DNA of 21,327 bases from positions 1-21,327 of the IMG/VR virus record IMGVR_UViG_3300037778_000215, one strand, 5' to 3'. The stretch's first letter is position 1. Each line of letters opens with the position of its first letter. Below, piece by piece: positions 6,371 through 20,556 of the stretch. Below the pieces are notes generated by a model, which was not told the origin of the DNA, did no database searches, and was given only the letters and a program-made list of their open reading frames with translations. Origin of the DNA: a virus. The translations under genes were made by a program, and so were the position numbers.

Positions 6371-6489
6371 CGGTCTTCCATGGCGTGGTCATATCGGTCA
6401 TCGCTCGCCTGCACGTGGATGTGTGGGGCTGGCCATGGGGGCGGTTTCTCACGGCAGTCGATGCGCTCTTGGAGATGGATAAAAAATGA
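6041..6489 (+). CDS. Tail assembly chaperone, -1 frameshift fusion (G-GT type)
   Basis: If ribosomes slip -1 at T TTT TTC (6313-6319), the first 93 residues join a 56-residue extension in the overlapping frame. That frame ends at TGA 6487-6489 and shares ATGA with the tape measure start. The extension begins RPKRARG and then reads IAVFHGVVISVIARLHVD, VWGWPWGRFLTAVDALLEM: a coherent, Trp-containing helical sequence. Without a shift, 6371-6485 would be a 115-base gap in an otherwise gapless operon. Long-tailed phages commonly make a G/GT pair this way, with the long form bridging tape measure and tube. Slippery site and open frame are visible; the efficiency is unknown. The fusion would be 149 residues. 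Confidence 0.72.
6313..6319 (+). promoter_or_regulatory. Slippery heptamer for -1 frameshift
   Basis: T TTT TTC in the zero frame (codons GAT-TTT-TTC) is a canonical X XXY YYZ slippery site: both Phe tRNAs can re-pair after a -1 slip. It lies just downstream of the last stop codons in the -1 frame (6304-6306 and 6310-6312), the only place where a slip gives a long fusion. A seven-base stem (TATCTCC 6344-6350 with GGAGATA 6363-6369) lies 24 bases downstream, farther than usual for a stimulator. Confidence 0.65.
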
Positions 6490-9400
6490 GCACCCAGGAA
6501 ATCCAATTCGGTGTGACGCTGCGCTTGCGCTTGGATCAGTATTTGTCCGGCCTGCGCCAAGCTGCGGGCGCGCATCGGGGTGCCGTGGATCAAATCAGCT
6601 CGCAGACCGCGCGGGCGTCCCGTTCTCTGGCGTCCGCTGGTGGTGATGGCCGGATACTGGTGCAATCTCTCGCCGATGCCGCCGGACAGGCGCTCGGACT
6701 GGCCGCCGCCCTGTCCGGGATTGTGTTACCCGTCAAAGCCGCCATCGAGTTTGAAGCGGCCATGGCCGACGTCAAAAAAGTCGTGGATTTTGAGGAACCC
6801 ACTGGGCTTGCCCAGCTCTCCGATGATCTTCTCCTCATGTCTCGCCGCATCCCATTGGCGGCCACAGCCCTGGCCCAAATCACCGCCGCCGGTGGTCAGA
6901 TGGGCATCGCTGAGCGTGACCTCACCCGATTCACGGAGATCGTGGCCAAACTGGCTGTCGCATTAGATCTGCCAGCGGACGCGGCTGGTGAGTCAATGGG
7001 AAAAATCGCGAACATCTTTCATATGACAATGGATCAGATGGAAGAGCTTGGTGATGCAATCAACCACCTGTCGAACAACTCCGCATCAAAGGCTTCTGAA
7101 ATTATCAATGCATTGCGGCGCATAGGTGGCGTTGCAAATCAATTCGGTCTAACGGCAGAACAAGCGTCTGCCCTGTCTGCAACGCTAATTTCGCTTGGGC
7201 AAGCGCCTGAAATCGCTGGGACGGCTATCAATGCCATGCTCCAGAAACTTCAAAATGCCACTGCCGGGTCTAAAAAGTTCAAAGAAGCACTTAAAGAACT
7301 TAGGATCGATGCGGGACAACTTGAGGAATCAATTCGCAAAGATGCTCAGGCCGCGCTATTGGATTTTTTCGAAGCTATTGAAAATGTTGATAAATCCAAG
7401 CGTGGTGGACTGCTAACAAATCTGTTCGGGATGGAGCATAGCGATACAATATCTATCCTCGTCGGCGCCATGGATGAGTACCGAAATGAGCTTGATCTCG
7501 TCGCGGATAGGACGAAATATCTTGGCTCTGCCCAAAAAGAGTTCGAAGCCAAAGCCGCCACGACCAAAAACGAAATCCAACTGCTTGGCAACGCCGTCTC
7601 GGAGCTGGGTATTCGCATTGGCAATACGCTGCTCGCCCCACTGGGTGACGCCACAAAATTTCTGCGCAACCTGACCGCGTCGATATCGGATTTTGTTTAC
7701 AAGCATCCGGAGATGACCCAGGCGATCACGTATCTCTCTGGCGCCCTGGTGGGGCTGACGGGCGTGATGGGCGCGGCGCGGTTGGCGGCGCTGGCGCTGG
7801 GCGTGACCCTGCCGGCTCTGGGTGTGGCCGTGGCGGGTGTGACGTATGTCGCGGGGGCTATCGGCCTTGTGGGCTCAATGGTCGAGGCCGCCGATGCCAC
7901 GAAAGAGGTGGAAAAGCGCGCAATAAGGGCCAATGAAGCCTATGCCGGGCTGGCTCTGGCGGCGGACGACGCGCGCCGCGCGGTTGCTGATACGGCGCTG
8001 CTTCCAGGTCTGAGCGACGATGATCTGGTCCACGCCCGTGAGATGGTCAGGCTGAAATTACAGGCCATCGAGGGCGAGCGCCAGCGGTTGGAACTGGAAC
8101 AGCAGCGCCCAATCGCTGGCTATTTCACGGATCACTCCGACGAGATTGCCCGTCTCGCAGCGGAAGAAAAAGAATATCTGGCCGTGGCCCAGGCGGTGGG
8201 GCTGGAGCTGGCCAAACGCCCCGCCCTGGCCACCGCCGCCGGAAATGCGACCCAAGGCGCCGCAAGCGCAACGGCGCAAGCCACCGCCGAAATAAAAAAA
8301 CAATACGCCGATCTGACCCGGCAGCGGGAGAATGCCACCAGCAAGGTCGCCGAGGCGGAAAAGGCGCTGGCCGCCGAGCAGACCAGGCTGACGCGCGAAG
8401 TCCTGAACAACAAGATCAGCACGATCAAGAAGGAAATCTCTGAACGCGAGCGTGCCATCGATGAGAGCATCCGCGCGGAAGAGCGGCTGGCCAAGCGCAT
8501 CGCCGATCTGCAAGACAGCCGCCGCCGCGCCGCCCTGGACACCGATGGGATGATCCGCGACGTGCGCCGACGGGGGATGACCGACCGGCAAAAAGAGGCG
8601 GACGTCGAGCAGGAAATCGCGGAAAAGATCAACCGCGCCAAGCAGTTGGCGTCAAGCGGTTCTCAGTCGGACCGCCGCCTCGCCGAGGACCAGGCGCGCG
8701 ACGCGCAACGGCTGGCCGCCGGGCTGAAAGACGCCGGGACCGCCATCTCCGGCATCAAGGCCGCCGGTCAGGTATTGGACGATATTCACAGCGCCCAGGA
8801 GGCGGTAGCCCGGCAAGAGTACGGCAAGCAGCGGCAAGAGACCGCGTCCCTGGCGGACCAGATGGAGCGAGCTAAAAAAGAGGTCCAGGAGCTGAAGCGC
8901 TTCCTGGAGGAGATTCCGAAAGAACAGACCAAGGAAATAGAACTCAAAGCGGATGCTGCCCATGCCAAACAAGAGCTGGACAGCGTCAACGCTAAACTTG
9001 AAGAGCTGCAAATCAACGCGGAAAAGGCAGGCGTTTCCCTGGCCGCCCTGGGGAAATCCAAGCCAGGTGGGGCGCCAGAGGATGAACACCTGTTTGACTC
9101 GCTTGTAAAAGAGGTTGAACAGAAGCCGGTCAAAGTGCAGGTGGACACGTCCGAGATGAAAGAGGGGATCGACAACACCATCGAGCCCTACGCCATCAAG
9201 GGGTTCAAGATGCCGGTTGGCATGGACCCGGCAAAATTCCAAGAGGGACTGAAGTGGCTTGAAGAAGAGCTGAAGAGAAAAAACATCAAAATACCGGCCA
9301 CGCTGGACGTGCGGAATGATGCGCCGACCAAAAGTGTAGGGCGATTCGCTTCCGGTGGACTGATTAGCGGCCCGGGTGGCCCCACGGATGACTCGATTTT

Positions 9401-9734
9401 CGCGGCACTGTCCAATGGGGAGTACGTGCTGCCAGCCGCACAGACCCGGGTCGCGCTGCCGCTGCTGGAGTGGATGCGGGGCGCGTCTCCGCCGGTATTG
9501 CAGGACTGGGTCAAGCATCTGCCGAAATTCGCCCAGGGGGGGATCGTCAGCAATCTGCGCCTTCCGGACCTGCCAGCCCTGCGAACGATACGCTCTGCCT
9601 CGATCCCGGAAACGGGCGTAATGCGGATCGAACTGACCCTCCCAGGCGCCGCCAAGCCGCTGCCCCTGTGGGCCGAGCAGAGCACGGCGGAGACGTTGAG
9701 GCGTGAGTTGGCGCGTTTGGCGAGGGGACGCTGA
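6486..9734 (+). CDS. Tail tape measure protein, TP901-type
   Basis: Sets tail length and is later ejected ahead of DNA. Residues ~85-300 carry the tape-measure core of the TP901/PhageMin_Tail type: FEAAMADVKKVVDF, then an ALAQITAAGGQMGI segment, helices around VALDLPADAAGESMGKIANIF, and a GGVANQFGLTAEQASALSAT segment. A long hydrophobic stretch lies at ~412-467. Coiled coils with many Arg, Glu and Lys run from ~500 to 850. The C-terminal SGGLISGPGGPTDDSIFA and NGEYVLP (~955-985) are typical closing motifs. At 1082 residues the tail would be about 160 nm by the usual ~0.15 nm per residue. Bases ~6990-7540 are visibly poorer in GC than the flanks. The start overlaps the frameshift product (ATGA). 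Confidence 0.93.
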   Translation: MSTQEIQFGVTLRLRLDQYLSGLRQAAGAHRGAVDQISSQTARASRSLASAGGDGRILVQSLADAAGQALGLAAALSGIVLPVKAAIEFEAAMADVKKVVDFEEPTGLAQLSDDLLLMSRRIPLAATALAQITAAGGQMGIAERDLTRFTEIVAKLAVALDLPADAAGESMGKIANIFHMTMDQMEELGDAINHLSNNSASKASEIINALRRIGGVANQFGLTAEQASALSATLISLGQAPEIAGTAINAMLQKLQNATAGSKKFKEALKELRIDAGQLEESIRKDAQAALLDFFEAIENVDKSKRGGLLTNLFGMEHSDTISILVGAMDEYRNELDLVADRTKYLGSAQKEFEAKAATTKNEIQLLGNAVSELGIRIGNTLLAPLGDATKFLRNLTASISDFVYKHPEMTQAITYLSGALVGLTGVMGAARLAALALGVTLPALGVAVAGVTYVAGAIGLVGSMVEAADATKEVEKRAIRANEAYAGLALAADDARRAVADTALLPGLSDDDLVHAREMVRLKLQAIEGERQRLELEQQRPIAGYFTDHSDEIARLAAEEKEYLAVAQAVGLELAKRPALATAAGNATQGAASATAQATAEIKKQYADLTRQRENATSKVAEAEKALAAEQTRLTREVLNNKISTIKKEISERERAIDESIRAEERLAKRIADLQDSRRRAALDTDGMIRDVRRRGMTDRQKEADVEQEIAEKINRAKQLASSGSQSDRRLAEDQARDAQRLAAGLKDAGTAISGIKAAGQVLDDIHSAQEAVARQEYGKQRQETASLADQMERAKKEVQELKRFLEEIPKEQTKEIELKADAAHAKQELDSVNAKLEELQINAEKAGVSLAALGKSKPGGAPEDEHLFDSLVKEVEQKPVKVQVDTSEMKEGIDNTIEPYAIKGFKMPVGMDPAKFQEGLKWLEEELKRKNIKIPATLDVRNDAPTKSVGRFASGGLISGPGGPTDDSIFAALSNGEYVLPAAQTRVALPLLEWMRGASPPVLQDWVKHLPKFAQGGIVSNLRLPDLPALRTIRSASIPETGVMRIELTLPGAAKPLPLWAEQSTAETLRRELARLARGR

Positions 9735-11020: not shown

Positions 11021-11383
11021 ATGTCATTACATTTGCCAAGCCTTGGTCTGTTTCAGCGTTTTATTGTGTCTGATCATTATGGTGTAGGAACTATTGTTCT
11101 TGAGAAATGGAGACACAAAAGTTACGAGGCGTGGTATCAATTCCTGGCGTTGGATAGACCAATACCGGCCATATGGTACGATAGCTGGGCGAGAATCACA
11201 GGGCTCCAGTCCGGCAAAATCACGACAGTTCCACTGAGGCCTGACAGTTCCGACTTTGGAATCGATCCTCGGAGCGTGTCCCGGGTGCTCATGGCTAGAG
11301 GCGCTGGTTCTACACAGCAGAACAGGTTGGTTGGGTGGATCGAGGGGGAGAAGGCTAGCTATGACATTATTGCTGCGCCGTGA
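11021..11383 (+). CDS. Hypothetical protein upstream of the beta-propeller gene
   Basis: A 120-residue protein of unknown family. It is rich in aromatic residues (KSYEAWYQFLALDRP, AIWYDSWARI) with beta-like ends (GVGTIVLEKW, NRLVGWIEGE), and lacks a signal peptide or membrane helix. It starts two bases after the previous stop and overlaps the beta-propeller gene by 23 bases, so the two are probably co-translated. It could be an adaptor that attaches the propeller protein to the tail tip. That is inference from gene order only. Confidence 0.55.
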   Translation: MSLHLPSLGLFQRFIVSDHYGVGTIVLEKWRHKSYEAWYQFLALDRPIPAIWYDSWARITGLQSGKITTVPLRPDSSDFGIDPRSVSRVLMARGAGSTQQNRLVGWIEGEKASYDIIAAP

Positions 11384-12314
11384 TGTACCTGGGCTTTGTG
11401 TTTCATCGGAGATGCCATTTTGTCTTGATCCAGAGGATATCGGCGGGTTTGCGGTCAATACGCCACTACTCATGGAGCATGATGGCATTGTGAAAATGCT
11501 GTTTATAGCCTCTCTTGACGGAGATAACCATGAGAGGAATTACGATCTTTGGCTTATGCCAAGCAGTGGTGCGCAACCTGTGAAGGTTCTTGAGTTTAAC
11601 GATTGTGTTCATAATCCGTGGATCGTCAAGGAAAAGGATTTTGTCAGGTTATATATCACCGTCATGGAACATGCCGACGACCCGTCACGATATAGGAGTG
11701 CTATTCATGCATTTAGGTCACGCGATCTTAAAGTATGGGAGCATGAGGATGAAATCATTACAGGAGATGAGTTCTTCCCTGAGGTGGAGGGCGCATCTGT
11801 CATCAAGAGGCCGGACGGGAAATATGTTGGGTATTTCACAGTCGCTGCTGCTGGGGATGCAAAACATCCCAGATTTTCGGAAAATTATACTATTTTCTAT
11901 GCGCTTTCTGACGACGGTATTCATTTTGGCGAGTGGCAGTGGCCGGATGGCCTTGAGTCTGTCCAGGGGGAGTCCGACAGAGGTATGTATGCTCCAAAGA
12001 TATATCCTGTCGGTCCGTCCGACTATTGCGCGTTGATATCTGTTGTTCCGTGGATACACCGGTTTTTTGTCGTCGCATATCGCAGCAGGGATTTACATTC
12101 ATGGTCAAGGATTGGGCAGTGGACGCCCAAACTTCTGGGGCAGGAAAAAGGTGTGCGCCACGTTCTGAAGGCGACATTGTTCCGTGGCCACTTCACTTAC
12201 GCGATGCGCGACAATAATTTCAGGACATGGATAAGAACTGAATCGGTCAATTTAAGCGATATGTGCCCTGAATGGGAGCCATATTTTAAGCCGTTCAATA
12301 TTTTTCGATGCTAA
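11361..12314 (+). CDS. Five-bladed beta-propeller glycosidase-like protein
   Basis: A 317-residue protein with the repeated blade signatures of the GH43/GH32/GH117-type five-bladed propeller fold. 'SRDLKVWE' follows AIHAFR (115-127), 'SRDLHSWS' follows VVAYR (237-249), 'SDDGIHFGEWQ' lies at 183-193, and HNPWIVKEKDFVRLYITV lies at 84-101. Glu143 in VEGASVIKRPDGKY sits where the acid residue of these enzymes is often found, before a GYFTV strand. I cannot place all the acidic catalytic residues, so it may be an enzyme or only a sugar-binding propeller. The start at ATG 11361 has GGAGAAGG (11348-11355) upstream; in-frame upstream codons overlap the previous gene. In a tail operon it would act on host surface glycans. 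Confidence 0.7.
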   Translation: MTLLLRRDVPGLCVSSEMPFCLDPEDIGGFAVNTPLLMEHDGIVKMLFIASLDGDNHERNYDLWLMPSSGAQPVKVLEFNDCVHNPWIVKEKDFVRLYITVMEHADDPSRYRSAIHAFRSRDLKVWEHEDEIITGDEFFPEVEGASVIKRPDGKYVGYFTVAAAGDAKHPRFSENYTIFYALSDDGIHFGEWQWPDGLESVQGESDRGMYAPKIYPVGPSDYCALISVVPWIHRFFVVAYRSRDLHSWSRIGQWTPKLLGQEKGVRHVLKATLFRGHFTYAMRDNNFRTWIRTESVNLSDMCPEWEPYFKPFNIFRC

Positions 12315-12655: not shown

Positions 12656-13675
12656 ATGCCCATCCAATCATCAGACTTCCGCTTTTTTAAGTCGTCCCTC
12701 ACCTCCGACACCACTTCTGCCCAGAACGGCGGGCGTGAATCAACGGTTGAGATTATTGATAATGTCAAGGGATTATTCCCAGACGTGCCGCAAACGGAGC
12801 GCACGGCGGGCAGCACGAAGCTGCGCAAGACCTACGCGCGGATCATGGTGTTTATTGAGTTGGTGGACCCGAAAATCTGCTACACGGCGCCATCGGACGG
12901 CGATGATTTTTGCCTGCTCCAGTATACCGGCAGCCACGTGGACACGCAGGATCAGATTCCGAGCGGCGCGCGGCACTACGGCGTCGGCACCTTGCGGGAT
13001 AGCGCGGCGCTCGGGGCGACAACACTTGTCGTCACGCTCGAACATCCGCTCATGGGCACCACAACCACGCTCCGGCCTTTTCAGGCGGGCGATCTGGTGC
13101 GCATTTCCAATCAGCGACGGGCGGCAGATAGCGGCAGCTCTGAATACCGTACCGTGGAGACTGTTACTTACGACGGCGGAGAGGCCACCATCACCTTGAC
13201 CGCGCCAGGCACAACCTACGCATGGGACGCCGCGACGCCGATCTTTATCTCCAGCGTCGTGCAGCCCGGCGATATCCTGCCGCGTCTATCCGATGTGACA
13301 GTGTCGTCCACTGGTGGGACATGCGATACCGGGCAGATCAGCATGAGTGCAGTTGGCGTGATCCGCCAGACCTGGACCCTCACGATCACCAATGCCAGCA
13401 CGGGCGCGTTCCGCCTGGACGGGGATTCCCTCGGCGGCAATGTGGCAACGGGCTCCACCGGAGCGGACTTTACCCCGGACAACGCCGGCGTTGGCGCGCC
13501 CTATTTTACGTTGCCATCTACCGCCTGGAGCGGCGCGTGGGCTGCTGGCGACACGCTGGTGATCACCACCACGCCGGGATCGGTCCCCCTATGGGAAAAG
13601 CGGATCATCCCCGCTGGCGCTGCGAGCATCGCAGTGACGGGCACCAACCTGGCCATCATCGGGGAGAGCGCATAA
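12656..13675 (+). CDS. Tail-tip family protein, copy 1
   Basis: A 339-residue beta-rich protein of a family I cannot name. It is paralogous to the next gene along its length. Shared landmarks are the NGG near residue 26, PD-V-x-x-TER-x-x-G-x(4)-RK at ~42-59, R-x-YG-x-G-x-L at ~106-112, GDSLG near 256, and the strong C-terminal PYFTLP-x(2)-AW-x-G-x-WAAGDTL at ~282-302. The middle contains a DGGEATITLTAP strand pattern. It probably forms part of the tail tip or baseplate-like ring. The N-terminal 40 codons are AT-richer than the rest. The next gene starts immediately after the stop, so the two copies are coupled. Confidence 0.7.
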   Translation: MPIQSSDFRFFKSSLTSDTTSAQNGGRESTVEIIDNVKGLFPDVPQTERTAGSTKLRKTYARIMVFIELVDPKICYTAPSDGDDFCLLQYTGSHVDTQDQIPSGARHYGVGTLRDSAALGATTLVVTLEHPLMGTTTTLRPFQAGDLVRISNQRRAADSGSSEYRTVETVTYDGGEATITLTAPGTTYAWDAATPIFISSVVQPGDILPRLSDVTVSSTGGTCDTGQISMSAVGVIRQTWTLTITNASTGAFRLDGDSLGGNVATGSTGADFTPDNAGVGAPYFTLPSTAWSGAWAAGDTLVITTTPGSVPLWEKRIIPAGAASIAVTGTNLAIIGESA

Positions 13676-14662
13676 ATGGCTGTCCAGAATGACGAGATTG
13701 TGATTTGCCGCTCCTTCGGATGGGTGAGCGATCCCGCCGCGAACGGTGGCGTGATGACCTCCATTGCCATCCCGTCGGACGAAATGAACAACGTCTGGCC
13801 GGATATCTCCGTAACCGAGCGCGCCGAAGGCGTGGAAACATGGCGCAAGGTTTTTGTCCACGTGCGCAACCAAGATTCGCTTGGGCTGATCGGTGCCGCT
13901 GCGTTTGTTCTGGGTCCGACGCCCGCCGGGGACCGGACGCTGATCCGCCTGGGCACGCAGACCGATTTTCGGAGCGGGCTATCCCCGACGCGGTATTACG
14001 GCTCGGGCGATCTGCACGCCACGGTGCTGGCTGGGGATACGTCCTTGTCGGTAGACGTAGAGGACGCGGTGGACGCGGTTTTCCAGGATGGGGATTTGAT
14101 CGCCATCTCAACGGCTTCCGGTCCGCGTGAGTTTTTGCGATTGGCGGCGAGCGGCGCGGTCTCCTGGTCCGGCAATACCGCCACGCTCACGCTGACTGCT
14201 GGCGAGACGGTCCAGTCCCAGTACAACAGCGGGGCCAGCGTGACGGTCGCATCCGTGCTGCCGCTGGGGGATATCAAGGCCAGCATAGCCACGGCTATCT
14301 CCTCCACCAGTGGGACTTTTGATGGTGTGCAGGCTGCCCCGGACGGGAATGGCTCGGTCGAGCAGGTTTTTACCCTGACGTTCACCTCCGCCACCGCCTT
14401 TGACTGCGTTGGGGATAGCCTGGGCGCGCTGGGGTCCGGCAATACGGGGTCCGATTTTGCGCCGCAAAATCCAGATTTTACCCGGCCATATTTCACCTTG
14501 CCCGCCGCCGCTTGGGGTGGGACGTGGGCAGCGGGCGACACCCTGACCGTGACCACGCATCCGGCGGCAGCTTCGATATGGGAGCGGCGCATCGTCCCGG
14601 CGGGGATCGATTCGGTGGCCAATAATCGGGTGCAACTGGTGGTGCGGGGAGCGTCGGAATGA
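13676..14662 (+). CDS. Tail-tip family protein, copy 2
   Basis: A 328-residue paralog of the preceding protein. It keeps the family landmarks: AANGG near residue 24, PDISVTER and the RK that follows (~42-58), RYYGSGDL (~104-111), GDSLGALGSG (~248-257), and PYFTLPAAAWGGTWAAGDTL (~271-290) ending WERRIVPAG. A hydrophilic central region with GNTATLTLTAGETV differs between copies. Both lack membrane segments and Cys-rich motifs. Tandem copies of one fold suggest a heteromeric ring at the tail tip, with the two copies occupying different places. That is inference. The start directly follows TAA of copy 1, and its stop overlaps the next start as ATGA. Confidence 0.7.
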   Translation: MAVQNDEIVICRSFGWVSDPAANGGVMTSIAIPSDEMNNVWPDISVTERAEGVETWRKVFVHVRNQDSLGLIGAAAFVLGPTPAGDRTLIRLGTQTDFRSGLSPTRYYGSGDLHATVLAGDTSLSVDVEDAVDAVFQDGDLIAISTASGPREFLRLAASGAVSWSGNTATLTLTAGETVQSQYNSGASVTVASVLPLGDIKASIATAISSTSGTFDGVQAAPDGNGSVEQVFTLTFTSATAFDCVGDSLGALGSGNTGSDFAPQNPDFTRPYFTLPAAAWGGTWAAGDTLTVTTHPAAASIWERRIVPAGIDSVANNRVQLVVRGASE

Positions 14663-14943: not shown

Positions 14944-15415
14944 CACAAGATTTTTGCCGGAACAGGCGGCGGTCGACGAAAACGATCTGCTCTATCTGAT
15001 CGATCCAGACGACGCCACCGAGCACGCCGACGGCACCGCCAAGCGGGTCTCGATCGAGACGCTTCACACCCGCATGACCATCCGGGGATATCGGGAGCCG
15101 GTGGCGGTGGTGGCGTCGAGCGGCGGCGTGCTCAACCTGGACGTATCCAGCGGTGTCAATACCTTTCGTTGCGCCCTCTCCGAGGCAACCGCCGTCAATG
15201 TCGTCAACGCGGACGCTGGATTTGAGTATCCGGTGGTGCTGGTGCTGACGCAAAGCGCATCGGGACACCTGGTCACGTGGCCGCCCGGCACCGTCTGGTC
15301 TGGAGGACAGGCGCCGGATGTGAGCGCCGCAGGTATCCACAAAATCCTGCTCGCATATTACGACGATGGCAATAGCGTCCAAATATTGGCCAATGCCTCA
15401 ACAGGATATGCATAA
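14933..15415 (+). CDS. Short tail-fibre-like protein
   Basis: A 160-residue protein with the N-terminal attachment-like motif of many short fibre proteins: AAVDENDLLYLIDPDD followed by GTAKRVSIETL. The second half is beta-rich and has the phrase LVTWPPGTVWSGGQAPDVSAAGIHK, then LLAYYDDGNSVQIL, a common C-terminal sandwich of phage fibre or tip proteins ('l.WP.GtvW.gG.aP'). It sits between the coiled-coil protein and the LamG protein, in the receptor-binding part of the operon. Likely role: structural fibre or adaptor carrying the carbohydrate-binding neighbour. Confidence 0.7.
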   Translation: MAVNTRFLPEQAAVDENDLLYLIDPDDATEHADGTAKRVSIETLHTRMTIRGYREPVAVVASSGGVLNLDVSSGVNTFRCALSEATAVNVVNADAGFEYPVVLVLTQSASGHLVTWPPGTVWSGGQAPDVSAAGIHKILLAYYDDGNSVQILANASTGYA

Positions 15416-16164
15416 TGCATGCGCATCAATTCTTTTCAACAGCAGGATCAATGCAGAATTATAGTGATTTGGTGCTGTCGCATTTGCCTGATTTGTATTT
15501 CCCGCTGAATGAGGATAAAAAGCCCGCCGTTGATCTGGTCGGCGGCGTATCTACGATAGTCTCTGGCGTTACGTTTGGGTCGGACTTGCTCGTACGTAAA
15601 GGCGGCACATCCGCAACATTTGCAAGCAATAAAGCGGATTATATATCTGTAGATACTGCGATTCCAAGCGCGTTTCAAACGCCGGATGCATCCAACCATA
15701 CGATAGAAATGTGGATACGTCCCGACGAAACGTTTACCGGGTCGATGAGCTCAAGGCTTTTGGGCATTTATCCAGCATCACACAAATCGCTTCACCCGAT
15801 ATATATATTTAACAGCTCCGGGAATTATGTTGGGTATCAGGTGGGATATGGCGTATCACAGCGCATCGGAAGATACAGCAGCGCAGGAAGCGTCCCAGCA
15901 GGGCAAGTTCATCACTTGTGCTTTACGTGGGACGCGTCCGCTCGCATTATAGGTGTGTTTGTCAATGGCGCGGCAGTGCAAAACGATCAGGGCAATTCCG
16001 GTAACGGATATGGTTCATATTTTTCTAAAATAGATATCGGCAGGTTACAAGATAACTCAACAGCAAGCTATTCATATGCCGGTGATATGGGTCACGTTGC
16101 TTTCTATTCCCGTGTGCTGACTACTGCCGAAATCGCCGCCCACTACGCCGCCGGGAGGCTCTGA
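15415..16164 (+). CDS. LamG/concanavalin-like carbohydrate-binding tail protein
   Basis: A 249-residue protein with a concanavalin-like LamG_3 domain from about residue 25 to the end. Landmarks are the HTIEMWIRPDETFTG strand, AGQVHHLCFTWDAS with VFVNGAAVQN (the classic 'H....tWd....vyvNG'), FSKIDIGRL, and the closing AGDMGHVAFYSRVLTTAEI followed by AHYAAG. Such domains bind sugars or proteins and often form receptor-binding heads on phage fibres. Base composition is AT-richer than the flanks. The start overlaps the fibre-like gene (TAATG). Together with the beta-propeller it points to a surface-glycan receptor. Confidence 0.85.
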   Translation: MHAHQFFSTAGSMQNYSDLVLSHLPDLYFPLNEDKKPAVDLVGGVSTIVSGVTFGSDLLVRKGGTSATFASNKADYISVDTAIPSAFQTPDASNHTIEMWIRPDETFTGSMSSRLLGIYPASHKSLHPIYIFNSSGNYVGYQVGYGVSQRIGRYSSAGSVPAGQVHHLCFTWDASARIIGVFVNGAAVQNDQGNSGNGYGSYFSKIDIGRLQDNSTASYSYAGDMGHVAFYSRVLTTAEIAAHYAAGRL

Positions 16165-16478
16165 TGGCCGTTACTGACTACCTGCTGCTCTCGCCGGGTG
16201 GCGAGCCGCTGCTCTCCCCTGGTGGGCAGGAGCTGCTCACTGTGGGCGCGGTGCGGGAAATTCTAGGCACGGTTGACGGCCCAGCGCCTGACCAGTCCAC
16301 CATCCGGGCTTACCGCCACGACACGGGCGCGTTGCTGGGGGGCGCATCGCCCGCTGCCGACGGATCGTACCGGGTTGCGGTTGGGCAGTATGCCGGAGAG
16401 ATTTTCGTCGCGCATGTCCCTACGGCGTCAGACGAATACCCACGACCGATCCATCACCATGTGACACCAGACTGGTAA
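16164..16478 (+). CDS. Small beta-sandwich protein with SPGG repeats
   Basis: A 104-residue protein with two short N-terminal repeats (LLLSPGGEPLLSPGGQELL, residues ~7-25). A beta-sandwich-like segment follows: 'IRAYRHDTGALLGGASPAAD' then GSYRVAVGQYAGEIFVAHV, the pattern of carboxypeptidase-regulatory-like or transthyretin-like domains. The C-terminus is His-rich (RPIHHHVTPDW). It starts one base before the end of the LamG gene (TGATG). It may serve as a linker or decoration piece on the tail tip. The fold is inferred from pattern and the family is not known to me. Confidence 0.6.
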   Translation: MAVTDYLLLSPGGEPLLSPGGQELLTVGAVREILGTVDGPAPDQSTIRAYRHDTGALLGGASPAADGSYRVAVGQYAGEIFVAHVPTASDEYPRPIHHHVTPDW

Positions 16479-16481
16479 CTC

Positions 16482-18584
16482 GTGGCCTACACTCCGCCCG
16501 TAAATGACGCCGTGAGTTTCCAGGCGATCCCCGAGGACTACGCGCCGCCGGCGCACGACGCGGTGGATTTCCTGGTGCCCGGTGCGGACCTTGTGGTCAT
16601 CCACGTTCAACCGTACACGGATGCGGCGATCGCGGTGACGCACGTCCAGGCGTATCGCGCCCTGGCAGGCGCGGATCAAGCCCAGCGGTATCACGCCCTG
16701 GCAGGCGCGGATCACGCGCAGCGATATCACGCCTTGGCGGGCGTTGAGCATATCCAGCGCTACACGGACCGGACCACCACCATCGTACACGCGCAGCCCT
16801 ACCGCGCCCTGTCGGGTGCTGGGCACGTCCAGCGCTACACGGACCTGACCACCACCATCGTACACGCGCAGCCGTACCGCGCCCTGGCGGGTATTGGACA
16901 CGTCCAGCGCTACACGGACGCCACCGCCGGTGTGACGCATGATCAGCCGTACCGAGTTTTTACCGGCGCGGATCGCATGGGTCGGTGGGAGATGCTGCCC
17001 CTGGAAGCGCGCCCTGCGGCGGATCGCAGGGGACGATGGGAGCTGCTCCCGCTGGAAGCCCGCCCCAGGGCGGATAGATTCTCGCCGTTCGGGATTCAGG
17101 TGGCGGCGGAGCGGCGGTTTCGGCAGTCGGCGTTGCGGGTGTCCGGGCGTGACCGGCTGACGCTGTGGACGATCAATGCGCCGGTCGAGGTGGACAGGGC
17201 GACACCGTTCATGATCCTGGAGCTTGATCCTGTGTCGGTGGACCGTTTCGCACCGTTCAGCATGGCCGTTGTGGAGATGGATCGTTTTGTCCCGTGGGGG
17301 GATTTGTCCCCGGTTTCGGCGGAGCGTTTTTCCCCGTGGGGCGGCATGATCCCGGTCGAGGCGGAGCGCCAGACGTTCTGGAGTATTTTGCCGCTCGTGG
17401 TCGCGGATCGTTTCTCGCCGTTCGCAATGACATCTCCGTCCAGCGTGGACCGGCAGGCACGTTTCGAGATCCTGGATCACGACCCGGTGGTCGTGGATCG
17501 GCGGGCGATTTTCTCAATCCACTCCGGGGATGTGCGCCTGATCAGTGATCAGCCATCGCTGATCCACCAGGGACGGCGCATCCCGATAGCGCGGGCGGAG
17601 GTGCGGGCGGATGACGGGTCGCATGTCTGGCTGGCCGATATCACCCTGACGCGCCCCGCGGACTACGCGCGCATCCGCCTGGGCGATCCGATCCAGGTGG
17701 ACTTGTATGGCGAGATTTTCAGATTGTTCGTGGACCAACGTCACTTTTCACATTCCGAATACGGCGCTGTGCCAGACCTGCGCATTTCCGGAATCAGCCC
17801 CCTTGCGGCGCGTGGGTTGCCGTATGCCGCGCCGTTGACGTGGACGTGGGCCGGCCCGGTGGACGCATACGCAGTGGTGACGGAGCTGATCGGATCGGTC
17901 GCGTGGTCACTGCCGCACTGGAGCATCCCGGCGGGGCGGGTGGCCATCGAGGGCGGTGATCCACTCACATTGGCGCGGGCCATTGTGGCGGCGGCGGGTG
18001 GTGTGATCGATAGTCATCCGGATGGGTCTGTGACCTGTCGCCCGCGCTATCCGGTGTCGGTCCCAGACTGGCGGACGACAACCCCGGCGCACGATCTGAC
18101 CGACGAGGACGTGGTGTCCGTGTCGGAGTCCCACGAGTACCTGGAGTTTTTTGATCGGGTTGCGATATCCGACGTTCCTCCGGCTGTCGGCGGGTTGGAT
18201 GTCGAGTATGAGCAGGACGAGACGGACCGCTACCGGGGCACGCTGCGCGCCTACCCGGTCCCGTGGACCGCGCTGACGGCCAGCCACTCCGGAGACGGGG
18301 CGGTGTCCCTCTCACCGAGGGGGGCGATGACACGGACCGAGGAGGAGCTGGTCGATATTGTGGACGGCTACGGCACCACTCGGTATCCGATCTGGTCGGT
18401 CGTGTCCACAAAGTGGCAATACCGGAGCCTCGGCACGGTGTCGTTTGATCAGGGCTCCCGCGAGGTGGCTACATCCCTCCCGGGCACGTCGCTGCTTCGG
18501 ATCAAATATCGGACGCAGGCGCAGGAGTGGGCGGCAGCAGACCCGAGGGACGAAGAAATTCTGGCCGAGGTCATTGGAGGATAG
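16482..18584 (+). CDS. Tail-hub-like protein with N-terminal repeat array
   Basis: A 700-residue protein starting at GTG 16482. Residues 1-35 hold two 'Y-x-PP-x(2)-DAV' units. Residues 41-164 are an array of 25- and 12-residue units built on H-x-Q-[RP]-Y and AL[AS]G. Residues ~165-346 are about a dozen 12-17-residue units with the pattern [DE]-R-x(3)-[FWQ]. From ~350 on it looks like a tail hub: RADDGSHVWLADITLTRP, then RIRLGDPIQVDLYGEIFRLF, GGDPLTLARAIVAAAGGVI, GSVTCRPRYPVSVP, and a final IKYRTQAQEW. Hub proteins close the tail tube and hold the tip fibres. The repeat array is unlike standard hub domains and may form a stalk or needle. The hub call is by pattern. Confidence 0.65.
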   Translation: MAYTPPVNDAVSFQAIPEDYAPPAHDAVDFLVPGADLVVIHVQPYTDAAIAVTHVQAYRALAGADQAQRYHALAGADHAQRYHALAGVEHIQRYTDRTTTIVHAQPYRALSGAGHVQRYTDLTTTIVHAQPYRALAGIGHVQRYTDATAGVTHDQPYRVFTGADRMGRWEMLPLEARPAADRRGRWELLPLEARPRADRFSPFGIQVAAERRFRQSALRVSGRDRLTLWTINAPVEVDRATPFMILELDPVSVDRFAPFSMAVVEMDRFVPWGDLSPVSAERFSPWGGMIPVEAERQTFWSILPLVVADRFSPFAMTSPSSVDRQARFEILDHDPVVVDRRAIFSIHSGDVRLISDQPSLIHQGRRIPIARAEVRADDGSHVWLADITLTRPADYARIRLGDPIQVDLYGEIFRLFVDQRHFSHSEYGAVPDLRISGISPLAARGLPYAAPLTWTWAGPVDAYAVVTELIGSVAWSLPHWSIPAGRVAIEGGDPLTLARAIVAAAGGVIDSHPDGSVTCRPRYPVSVPDWRTTTPAHDLTDEDVVSVSESHEYLEFFDRVAISDVPPAVGGLDVEYEQDETDRYRGTLRAYPVPWTALTASHSGDGAVSLSPRGAMTRTEEELVDIVDGYGTTRYPIWSVVSTKWQYRSLGTVSFDQGSREVATSLPGTSLLRIKYRTQAQEWAAADPRDEEILAEVIGG
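16602..16973 (+). repeat. Type-1 coding repeats, 75- and 36-base units
   Basis: In-frame tandem units: 16602-16676 (75), 16677-16712 (36), 16713-16748 (36), 16749-16823 (75), 16824-16898 (75) and 16899-16973 (75). Units at 16749 and 16824 differ at about eight of 75 bases by my count, so this part is a recent duplication. The encoded core is H-x-Q-[RP]-Y followed by TD or RALAG. Confidence 0.85.
16974..17519 (+). repeat. Type-2 coding repeats with [DE]-R-x3-[FWQ] core
   Basis: Residues 165-346 of the hub-like protein contain about twelve diverged units of 12 to 17 residues. Examples: RMGRWEMLPLEARPAAD, RRGRWELLPLEARPRAD, RFVPWGDLSPVSAE, RFSPWGGMIPVEAE, RQTFWSILPLVVAD. Each has an aromatic (Gln once) four positions after Arg and, in most, an acidic residue before the next Arg. 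DNA identity is lower than in the type-1 array. Confidence 0.8.
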
Positions 18585-18585
18585 C

Positions 18586-19095
18586 ATGGCACAGTTGAGG
18601 GCGACGACGCGATTGAGTTTTGGCGAGCGTGCCACAGGGCGCGAGGTGTTGAGCGTCGAGGTGGACAGTAGGCCGGAGGGGCTGAATTCAGGACGAACAT
18701 CTTTTGATCCTGGCGATACGGCTTACATTTTGATCTATAAATCAGAAAACGTAAAAGTAAAGTCGGTTCGCGCCAGCACGGGGTCAGTTGTAACAAAATC
18801 CGTCGGAACGGTTGAAAAAGAATCCGACGTGTTTTTTGACGATGCTAATGAAGGTGTGCTTGATTTCCCGGCAACAAGCATAGATCAAAACAAAGTTGTG
18901 TGGATGGGAACCTCTCTCGGGAGCCTGTCGCTACAGCCTGATGGTGTTACAGTTAAATCGGCCAAAAAAGGACTTGCCGTGGCGCGTGTTACATACAAAG
19001 CCGCCCCTGAAGCCCGTGGCATTGTATCGCCAAAAACATTGGGAGGGCTAGAAAGCTTCTCGATCAATGTGCTCGTGGAGGGGCTCGCTGGTTGA
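18586..19095 (+). CDS. Beta-rich tail-tip protein, unknown family
   Basis: A 169-residue protein with GGAGG (18576-18580) and a suitable gap to ATG 18586. It looks like an all-beta tail protein: TTRLSFGERATGREVLSVEV, then TSFDPGDTAYILIYKSENV, VDFPATS-like strands, and a closing SFSINVLVEGL. The 'F.pGDtAyillYkSeNV' phrase is reminiscent of proteins I associate with the hub region of similar phages, but I cannot name a family. The 5' end is GC-rich, whereas bases ~18700-19075 are AT-rich, with repeated GTT, AAA and ACA codons. This suggests an exchanged domain. The next gene starts by TTGA overlap. Confidence 0.6.
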   Translation: MAQLRATTRLSFGERATGREVLSVEVDSRPEGLNSGRTSFDPGDTAYILIYKSENVKVKSVRASTGSVVTKSVGTVEKESDVFFDDANEGVLDFPATSIDQNKVVWMGTSLGSLSLQPDGVTVKSAKKGLAVARVTYKAAPEARGIVSPKTLGGLESFSINVLVEGLAG

Positions 19096-19400
19096 CCATT
19101 TCCATAGAGGTCTACCGGGGCGCTGGATCGGTGCGCGGTCCGGATATTACAGATCACTATATCGGCTCCGACGCCTGCGCCCTCTCCCGTGGCCGTGCCG
19201 CCCTGGACGAGTCCGCCCACCGCCGGAGCCGAGTGGAGACTGTGGCCCTGCATCGTCCCGGAGTACGTGTCGGTCAACTCGTGCGGGTCGGGGTGGAGGG
19301 CGAACCTCTCTGGACCGGTCAGGTATCCAGAGTGCGCCATATTGCCGCTGACGGGCAGCTCCTGACAATGCTATCTATCGAGAAAATAATGGAGAATTAG
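19092..19400 (+). CDS. Small OB-like tail-hub accessory protein
   Basis: A 102-residue protein starting at TTG 19092, which overlaps the previous stop (TTGA). It reads as a small beta-barrel: ISIEVYRGAGSVRGPDITDH, then VETVALHRPGVRVGQLVRVGV and LWTGQVSRVRHIAADGQLLT. The 'GQLVRV....PLWTGQVsrVrH' phrase is like the small OB- or beta-barrel parts of hub proteins, and resembles the part of the 16482 protein around RIRLGDPIQVDLYGEIFRLF. It is probably a hub-associated piece. The TTG start is inferred from the overlap and the tight operon. Confidence 0.6.
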   Translation: MTISIEVYRGAGSVRGPDITDHYIGSDACALSRGRAALDESAHRRSRVETVALHRPGVRVGQLVRVGVEGEPLWTGQVSRVRHIAADGQLLTMLSIEKIMEN

Positions 19401-19401
19401 C

Positions 19402-20040
19402 ATGGCAACACCCGCCGCCGATATTGCGAGACTGCTACGGCAACCGGGCGGCGGGAGCGTTATCGGCACAGTCACGACGGTGCGCGGCAGCCGGGTGGAT
19501 ATCGTCACCGGGACCGGGGCCGTCTCCGCGCATGCGTTCACGGCGCTCCAACCCGGACAGCGGGTGCGTGTTGTAGACGGTGTGGCGTACCCGCTCGCCA
19601 CGGCAGCCAGGCAATACCCTCTAGGTGGCAGCAGTTATCAACCCCAGGTGCCGATCGCTCCGCCGCCGGTGGAGACCGAGTGGGGTGTGATCCGGCTCAC
19701 GGCGGCGGTGCCAATCGGGGCGAGGAGGGCCGTGACGGTAAATGCGGATGGGAACGCGATTTATGCCGATTCCGGGCGCGTTGATCACGCAAATAAAACC
19801 ATTGGTATCAGTGTGCGGGCAGCCGCAGCATGGGAGAGTGTCACCCTCCAGCGGGCCGGAGATATGACTGACCCAGGGTGGCAGTGGACGCCGGGGGGAC
19901 CGATTTTTGTTGGGGGCGCCGGGGTGCTGGCTCAAATACCACCCACGGCTGGGCAGTTGACACGGATTGCGCTGGCGCTGGCGCCAACGCGGATAGAGGT
20001 AATGCGTACACCTTCGATCATCTTTAACTTGGGGCTATAA
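19402..20040 (+). CDS. Tail protein with OB-like and C-terminal beta-barrel domains
   Basis: A 212-residue protein in two parts. Residues ~15-65 are an OB-like barrel (GTVTTVRGSRVDIVTGTG, LQPGQRVRVVDGVAYPL), as in baseplate spike or hub proteins. Residues ~95-212 are a second barrel: WGVIRLTAAVPIGARRAVTV, then MTDPGWQWTPGGPIFVGGAG and LTRIALALAPTRIEVM. The same barrel appears to recur in the next gene (20044), so these are probably structural relatives. A Pro-rich linker (PQVPIAPPPVE) joins the parts. A spike-like or fibre-base role is inferred. Confidence 0.6.
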   Translation: MATPAADIARLLRQPGGGSVIGTVTTVRGSRVDIVTGTGAVSAHAFTALQPGQRVRVVDGVAYPLATAARQYPLGGSSYQPQVPIAPPPVETEWGVIRLTAAVPIGARRAVTVNADGNAIYADSGRVDHANKTIGISVRAAAAWESVTLQRAGDMTDPGWQWTPGGPIFVGGAGVLAQIPPTAGQLTRIALALAPTRIEVMRTPSIIFNLGL

Positions 20041-20043
20041 CAC

Positions 20044-20556
20044 GTGGCTGATAAATATCTTTTTGCGACTCCTGAGGGGGATGTCGTTGAGCGTGAGGCA
20101 TCAACCGCATCGGCTGGGGCGGGGAGTGCCGGAAAAATTGCAGCGCTGGGCGTTGACGGGCGCCTGGACCTGACAATGATGCCCACCGGCGTGGGTGCAT
20201 CAACAAAACTTGTACCAGCATCTGGTGCGTTGAGCGCTGGGGATGTGGTTAATCTCTTTGATGACGCCGGGACCCTCTCCGCGCGACGCGCAGATGCCAC
20301 AACGGCTGGGACTGAAGCCAAAGGCTTTGTCGTGGATTCATTTGCAGACGGCGCTTCAGCGCTGGTGTATTTGTCGGGTGTCAACTCAGCGCGAACGGGG
20401 TTGACGCAGGGAGCGCGGTATTTCCTCTCTACAACGGCGGGCGGAATCACGACAACCGCGCCCACGGGGAGTGGTAATCGAGTGCAGATTGTTGGGCACG
20501 CCATCTCAGATACGGAACTCCAGTTTAATCCGCAAAATATTTGTGTCCGTGCGTAA
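20044..20556 (+). CDS. Beta-barrel tail protein, relative of the 19402 C-terminus
   Basis: A 170-residue protein starting at GTG 20044. The N-terminus is a short flexible segment with TASAGAGSAGKIAALGVDGRL, the pattern of a fibre attachment linker. Residues ~55-170 form a barrel: ALSAGDVVNLFDDAG, then EAKGFVVDSFADGASALVYL, GLTQGARYFLSTTAGGI and RVQIVGHAISDTELQF. This matches the layout of the C-terminal barrel of the 19402 protein (unit ending 'i.G.Als.tei.i'). Such barrels are common in fibre and decoration proteins. The role is inferred. Confidence 0.65.
   Translation: MADKYLFATPEGDVVEREASTASAGAGSAGKIAALGVDGRLDLTMMPTGVGASTKLVPASGALSAGDVVNLFDDAGTLSARRADATTAGTEAKGFVVDSFADGASALVYLSGVNSARTGLTQGARYFLSTTAGGITTTAPTGSGNRVQIVGHAISDTELQFNPQNICVRA

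Follow-up and report, generated by a model that had tools for sequence, protein, structure and literature searches.

Tail hubs of the Mu gp44, T4 gp27 and VgrG type share a two-barrel fold and a common place in the genome, between the tape measure gene and the genes for small tail proteins. Hubs of the gp27 type are trimers. We know of no short-repeat array at the N-terminus of any hub of this type. A homologous system is the hub of SIO-2-like Vibrio siphophages (PHROG 24698, about 430 amino acids), which begins with only five or six short units that are not annotated as repeats. For the repeats themselves, a point of comparison is the triple beta-spiral, whose repeats are about 15 residues long. 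In fibre shafts of the adenovirus type, these short strand-turn-loop repeats are intertwined in a trimer (PMC8869412).

We analyzed a viral record of 21.3 kb (the window, meaning this entire stretch of DNA). It also encodes a capsid protein, a tail terminator and a tape measure gene, and from this gene content we infer a siphovirus-type phage. A PhageMin_Tail protein (6486-9734) precedes the gene under study, which places that gene in the tail module, 3' of the tape measure gene. The order of tape measure, hub and small tail proteins is also seen in Vibrio phages. The features of the region are:

15415 to 16164, plus strand: LamG/concanavalin-like protein, upstream of the hub (Pfam Laminin_G_3, E = 4.9e-16)
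16482 to 18584, plus strand: array-plus-hub protein, 700 amino acids, an open frame with a GTG start (PHROG 24698, E = 4.8e-36; PHROG 6079, tail, E = 2.5e-12; both on the hub part)
16488 to 16571, plus strand: two distal 17-residue units, Y-x-P-P-x3-A-V-x-F, residues 3-13 and 20-30 (residue listing)
16599 to 16970, plus strand: ten H/Q-x-Q-x-Y units of 12 or 13 residues each, residues 40-163 (unit fit, autocorrelation)
16713 to 16919, plus strand: 75-bp tandem copies, 2.8 copies (TRF)
16971 to 17537, plus strand: thirteen [DE]-R-x3-[FWQ] units of 12-17 residues, residues 164-352 (unit fit, autocorrelation)
17364 to 17537, plus strand: conserved terminal module, the last four units, with anchors W300, F314, F328 and F344 (spaced 14-14-16) and a D-P-V motif (array alignment)
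17547 to 18581, plus strand: tail hub domain, gp27/Mu gp44-like, residues about 356-700 (AlphaFold, Foldseek, Vibrio homologues)
18586 to 19095, plus strand: gene downstream of the hub, fused to it in some Magnetococcales (match to PHROG 24905)
19092 to 19400, plus strand: gene downstream of the hub, likewise fused to it in some Magnetococcales (match to PHROG 22220)

The C-terminal half of the 700-residue protein is a tail hub, and in a phage that is probably of the siphovirus type it would be the central one. The PHROG matches are confined to this half (PHROG 24698 spans residues 397-685), and 31 Vibrio phage records match the hub by tblastn. AlphaFold gives residues 356-700 or so a two-barrel hub fold with pLDDT mostly 80-95. 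(Residues 524-569 are poorly modelled.) Foldseek matches the model to the hub proteins of Mu, MuSo2 and Neisseria and to VgrG (PDB 9ki1, 3d37, 3cdd; E = 3e-7 to 6e-4), although the identity in the structural match is just 14-18%. Homology and fold thus bear out the initial annotation, which had called the protein tail-hub-like.

The N-terminal 350 residues or so (1-355) consist of short units: two of the Y-x-P-P type, ten H-x-Q-x-Y and thirteen [DE]-R-x3-aromatic. With an unsupervised fit, in which the register was not set by hand, the H-type units are spaced 13, 12, 12, 12, 13, 12, 13, 12 and 13 residues apart (score 244, versus 124 ± 7 for shuffled sequences). The DR-type units are spaced 17, 17, 12, 14, 14, 16, 13, 14, 14, 14, 14 and 16 apart (277 versus 162 ± 10). 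Autocorrelation of the H part peaks at lags 25 (z = 13.4) and 12 (z = 7.4), and that of the DR part at lags 14, 17 and 28; none of 300 shuffles reached the observed maximum. Both main arrays are far beyond chance. (Unit 14 has a glutamine and breaks the aromatic rule.) The initial annotation was right about a short-repeat array of two unit types. Its "about twelve" DR units are thirteen, its period of 25 reflects spacings that alternate between 12 and 13, and it missed the two Y-x-P-P units ahead of the H units. Units of the Y-x-P-P type are also N-terminal in three related loci (L034, L035 and L076) and in phage B8b.

It had also named no standard hub domain of this form, and our searches agree. 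For residues 1-355, Pfam yielded no family match (the sole hit, EAD6, was below threshold at 13.1 bits against a cut-off of 27), PDB sequences yielded no match, and PHROG covers only the hub. Searching the sequences of solved structures with the window protein, the hub profile or a Pseudomonas relative gave nothing useful. Within the part of the literature that our searches covered, no such array is described. An array of this kind on a phage tail hub appears to be undescribed so far.

The window protein alone found no relative in viral and genome contig collections; relatives came through alignments. Profile-led scans found hubs in IMG/VR and in metagenome-assembled genomes of Magnetococcales, Thioalkalivibrio and another gammaproteobacterium. 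The hub closest to the window's is L034, from Magnetococcales (49% identity). Except for the truncated L037, these hubs are preceded by short units, each with its own word: AEHRARLDLL in L034, RVTLPYGEVSRLQA in L021, EFEAPYSL in L016, QWSLPYGL in L036 and RLRLPWDI in L038. The Vibrio hub proteins that we examined begin with F-x-S-S-Y-type units, in contrast to H-x-Q-x-Y and D-R-x3-F in the window, yet they share the hub, the terminal module and the gene order. Outside a group with split genes (see below), every full-length relative examined has an array, though the words differ. Across Vibrio siphophages, IMG/VR viruses and Magnetococcales genomes, the arrays have 5 to about 29 units at the equivalent place. 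One distant relative turned up in a plasmid collection (L017, NZ_CP091517.1, Kingella potus); its N-terminus is repetitive, with ALPLPF and RRCT words.

What these arrays share is spacing. We made a gap-free alignment of the final 61 residues from 42 arrays, whose median pairwise identity is 14%. Aromatic residues occupy offsets 0, -16, -30 and -44 from the hub end in 93%, 79%, 83% and 83% of the arrays, against a background of about 8%. (The last anchor was chosen by eye, and the resulting bias is limited to offset 0.) The exact aromatic triple at -16, -30 and -44 is present in 29 of the 42 arrays, and the runner-up spacing in 8; these counts are not independent events, because the arrays are related by descent. 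With automatic anchors and stricter removal of redundancy, the triple occurs in 22 of 41 arrays, versus 5 for the runner-up (background 0.078), and the register-free unit fit likewise gives 14-14-16 endings. Conservation extends to other sites: position -14 is hydrophobic in 93%, and positions -10 to -8 carry an N/D-P-V motif. The window has this ruler (W300, F314, F328, F344), which we define here for the PHROG 24698 hub lineage. Departures are 12-14-16 in L034 and L035 and 14-14-14 in L014. Unit lengths have thus been kept while the sequences were lost. The initial annotation had suggested that the two unit types are one ancient repeat that diverged twice. This gains support and can be widened to the whole family, because an 8-residue layout and the terminal spacing recur with unrelated words.

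The units also have a strand-like pattern. Hydrophobic residues prefer even offsets (0.475 versus 0.214; column permutation p of about 1e-5, or about 2e-4 with the anchors left out), and even exceeds odd hydrophobicity in 41 of the 42 arrays. Extended strands with one buried face would give this pattern. The window's outer array includes spacings of 13 and 17, and for this part we rejected the idea that lengths must be even. On a composition scale, the window's array (0.068) is near its own folded hub (0.087). AlphaFold gives the window's array a pLDDT of 20-38 and no strands. For L021 it places about one weak strand in each unit at a pLDDT of about 30-41, which is only a hint. Because neither array is confidently modelled, we do not trust a fold search with them. 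Position and fast evolution fit a host-facing appendage but do not fix its fold, which may or may not be the beta-solenoid stalk or receptor needle of the initial annotation. The window's unit lengths (12-17) and alternation would fit a triple beta-spiral. That likeness is a lead; the AlphaFold monomer gives the array no fold.

In our reading, the array is a stalk or appendage of beta strands that is carried by the hub and probably faces the host, and we give this a probability of about 50%. Residues 1-355 would leave the hub at its N-terminus. Judging from the alternating hydrophobicity and the even unit lengths, every unit would comprise a single beta strand, about 8-10 residues long, and a turn. 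The last four units, marked by the 14-14-16 ruler, would be a conserved base that docks on the hub. Recombination or slippage would add, remove and homogenise the outer units. The stalk is probably trimeric, as gp27-type hubs are trimers. Its outer face or its distal end, which carries a discoidin or SPRY domain in some relatives, would meet the host surface. Several results count against this reading: the low pLDDT of the array in the window and in L021, the odd spacings of 13 and 17 outside the terminal module, a set of paralogues in the genome G040 (see below), and the more distant PHROG 6079 branch (B8b and Pseudomonas U8), whose array ends in a proline-rich linker and in which the ruler is not visible by eye.

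An unlikely alternative is that each unit docks as a strand into a single copy of a different protein, either a tail protein or an adhesin. The array would then be a multivalent holder and not a self-standing stalk. The 8-residue alternating hydrophobic core, the variable number of units and the lack of a predicted fold for the array alone would all suit such a scaffold, as would the conserved small proteins encoded by adjoining genes. But independent beads would need neither a fixed 14-14-16 spacing nor even parity across the linkers, and no partner was identified.

Gene fusions bear on which proteins act together. L048, L049 and L054 encode the array on a gene of its own (379-414 residues). 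This gene stops next to the hub start, and its last strand resembles the first strand of the hub. (We rejected constant fusion of array and hub, as several Magnetococcales encode the array as its own gene just upstream.) The hub gene of L049 matches PHROG 24698, 24905 and 22220, of which the latter two are separate downstream genes in the window. These fusions suggest that the hub, the array and the PHROG 24905 and 22220 small proteins work together. The LamG/concanavalin-like protein is a candidate partner in host binding.

It is unlikely that the array instead wraps the hub or tail tube as a structural collar, an assembly part with no host contact. Conservation of the terminal module even in five-unit Vibrio phages, and the separate array gene of some genomes, could be explained this way. 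However, the array usually evolves faster than the hub: identity is 0.62 versus 0.91 for L019 and L021, and 0.50 versus 0.81 for L093 and L101. Also, F5/8 type C (discoidin-type) and SPRY domains lie N-terminal to two arrays as optional, adhesion-type domains at the distal end. (By eye, L030, L031 and L033 have CAP-like segments, which have no Pfam match.)

In Pseudoalteromonas phage B8b, ORF28 (Contig1_ORF28) was detected in purified virions by mass spectrometry, with four peptides (PMC4294664, Table 1). This protein is a distant array-plus-hub relative: its hub matches the profile and its N-terminus has Y-x-P-P-type units. Position, fast evolution, distal domains and detection in virions would suit a part of the tail tip that is exposed and faces the host.

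In G040, the array does not evolve faster than the hub. This 4.7-Mb genome has seven hub copies (L086-L092), each adjoining an array gene, with 83-93% mutual identity; they are apparently seven related prophages or tail clusters.

Arrays can change in length by whole units. L021 and L025, whose hubs are 89% identical, differ by an array gap of 70 residues, or five units of 14, with L021 the longer. In the window, the closest pair of 75-bp copies is 92% identical, with two synonymous and three non-synonymous codon differences, and TRF also reports a 51-bp pair. We found no close relative of the window in which to count units. The change in length by slippage that had been read from the 75-base copies is partly supported by L021 and L025. 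Against it stand the ten Vibrio phages examined, all of which keep the minimal array, and the seven paralogous array genes of G040, every one of which has 378 residues. In L033, units seem to be duplicated in three-unit blocks (12-14-16, 42 residues), a higher-order repeat.

Tandem near-copies and very low pLDDT would also be expected of a disordered, slippage-expanded linker with no defined structure, but this is very unlikely given a ruler kept at 14% identity and an order-like composition: the window's array has no lysine, and 18 of its 350 residues are glycine.

A broader proposal is tentative, and we doubt it more than the stalk itself: the array may be either a fibrous beta fold of a new kind or a scaffold of tandem donor strands, with unit length conserved and sequence free. 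It would give a widespread phage group a host-contact appendage on the hub itself, quick to change in sequence and adjustable in length. If our reading of the array is right, the fast-evolving part of a large phage group, most of it unannotated, would be on the central hub and not on a separate fibre. The words are too different for sequence searches to link the arrays. Spacing does link them, which offers a route to annotation and a target for structural work.

As for the host, the class to which the Magnetococcales genome belongs has matches to the hub profile in 40 of 48 genomes, versus 6 of 274 in a gammaproteobacterial sample, a group that was itself picked through a hit. Because of this difference, a host near Magnetococcales is plausible for the window.

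We made several other observations in the window. The protein encoded at 11361-12311, within the tail gene block, has a weak match to Glyco_hydro_43 (E = 1.3e-6, under the curated cut-off), and this is the window's stretch of lowest G+C (0.48-0.51, versus about 0.6). The adjoining genes at 12656-13675 and 13676-14662 are a tandem duplication, because their products are homologous (35% identity). In several related loci, relatives with the motif NGGR...FPDV..ERT..G are encoded upstream of the hub. The small gene directly upstream of the hub starts with a 24-base tandem repeat (16184-16238) that encodes LLLSPGGEP-type units. Finally, the neighbouring genes at 19402-20037 and 20044-20553 each match PHROG 4368, with no direct similarity between the two.
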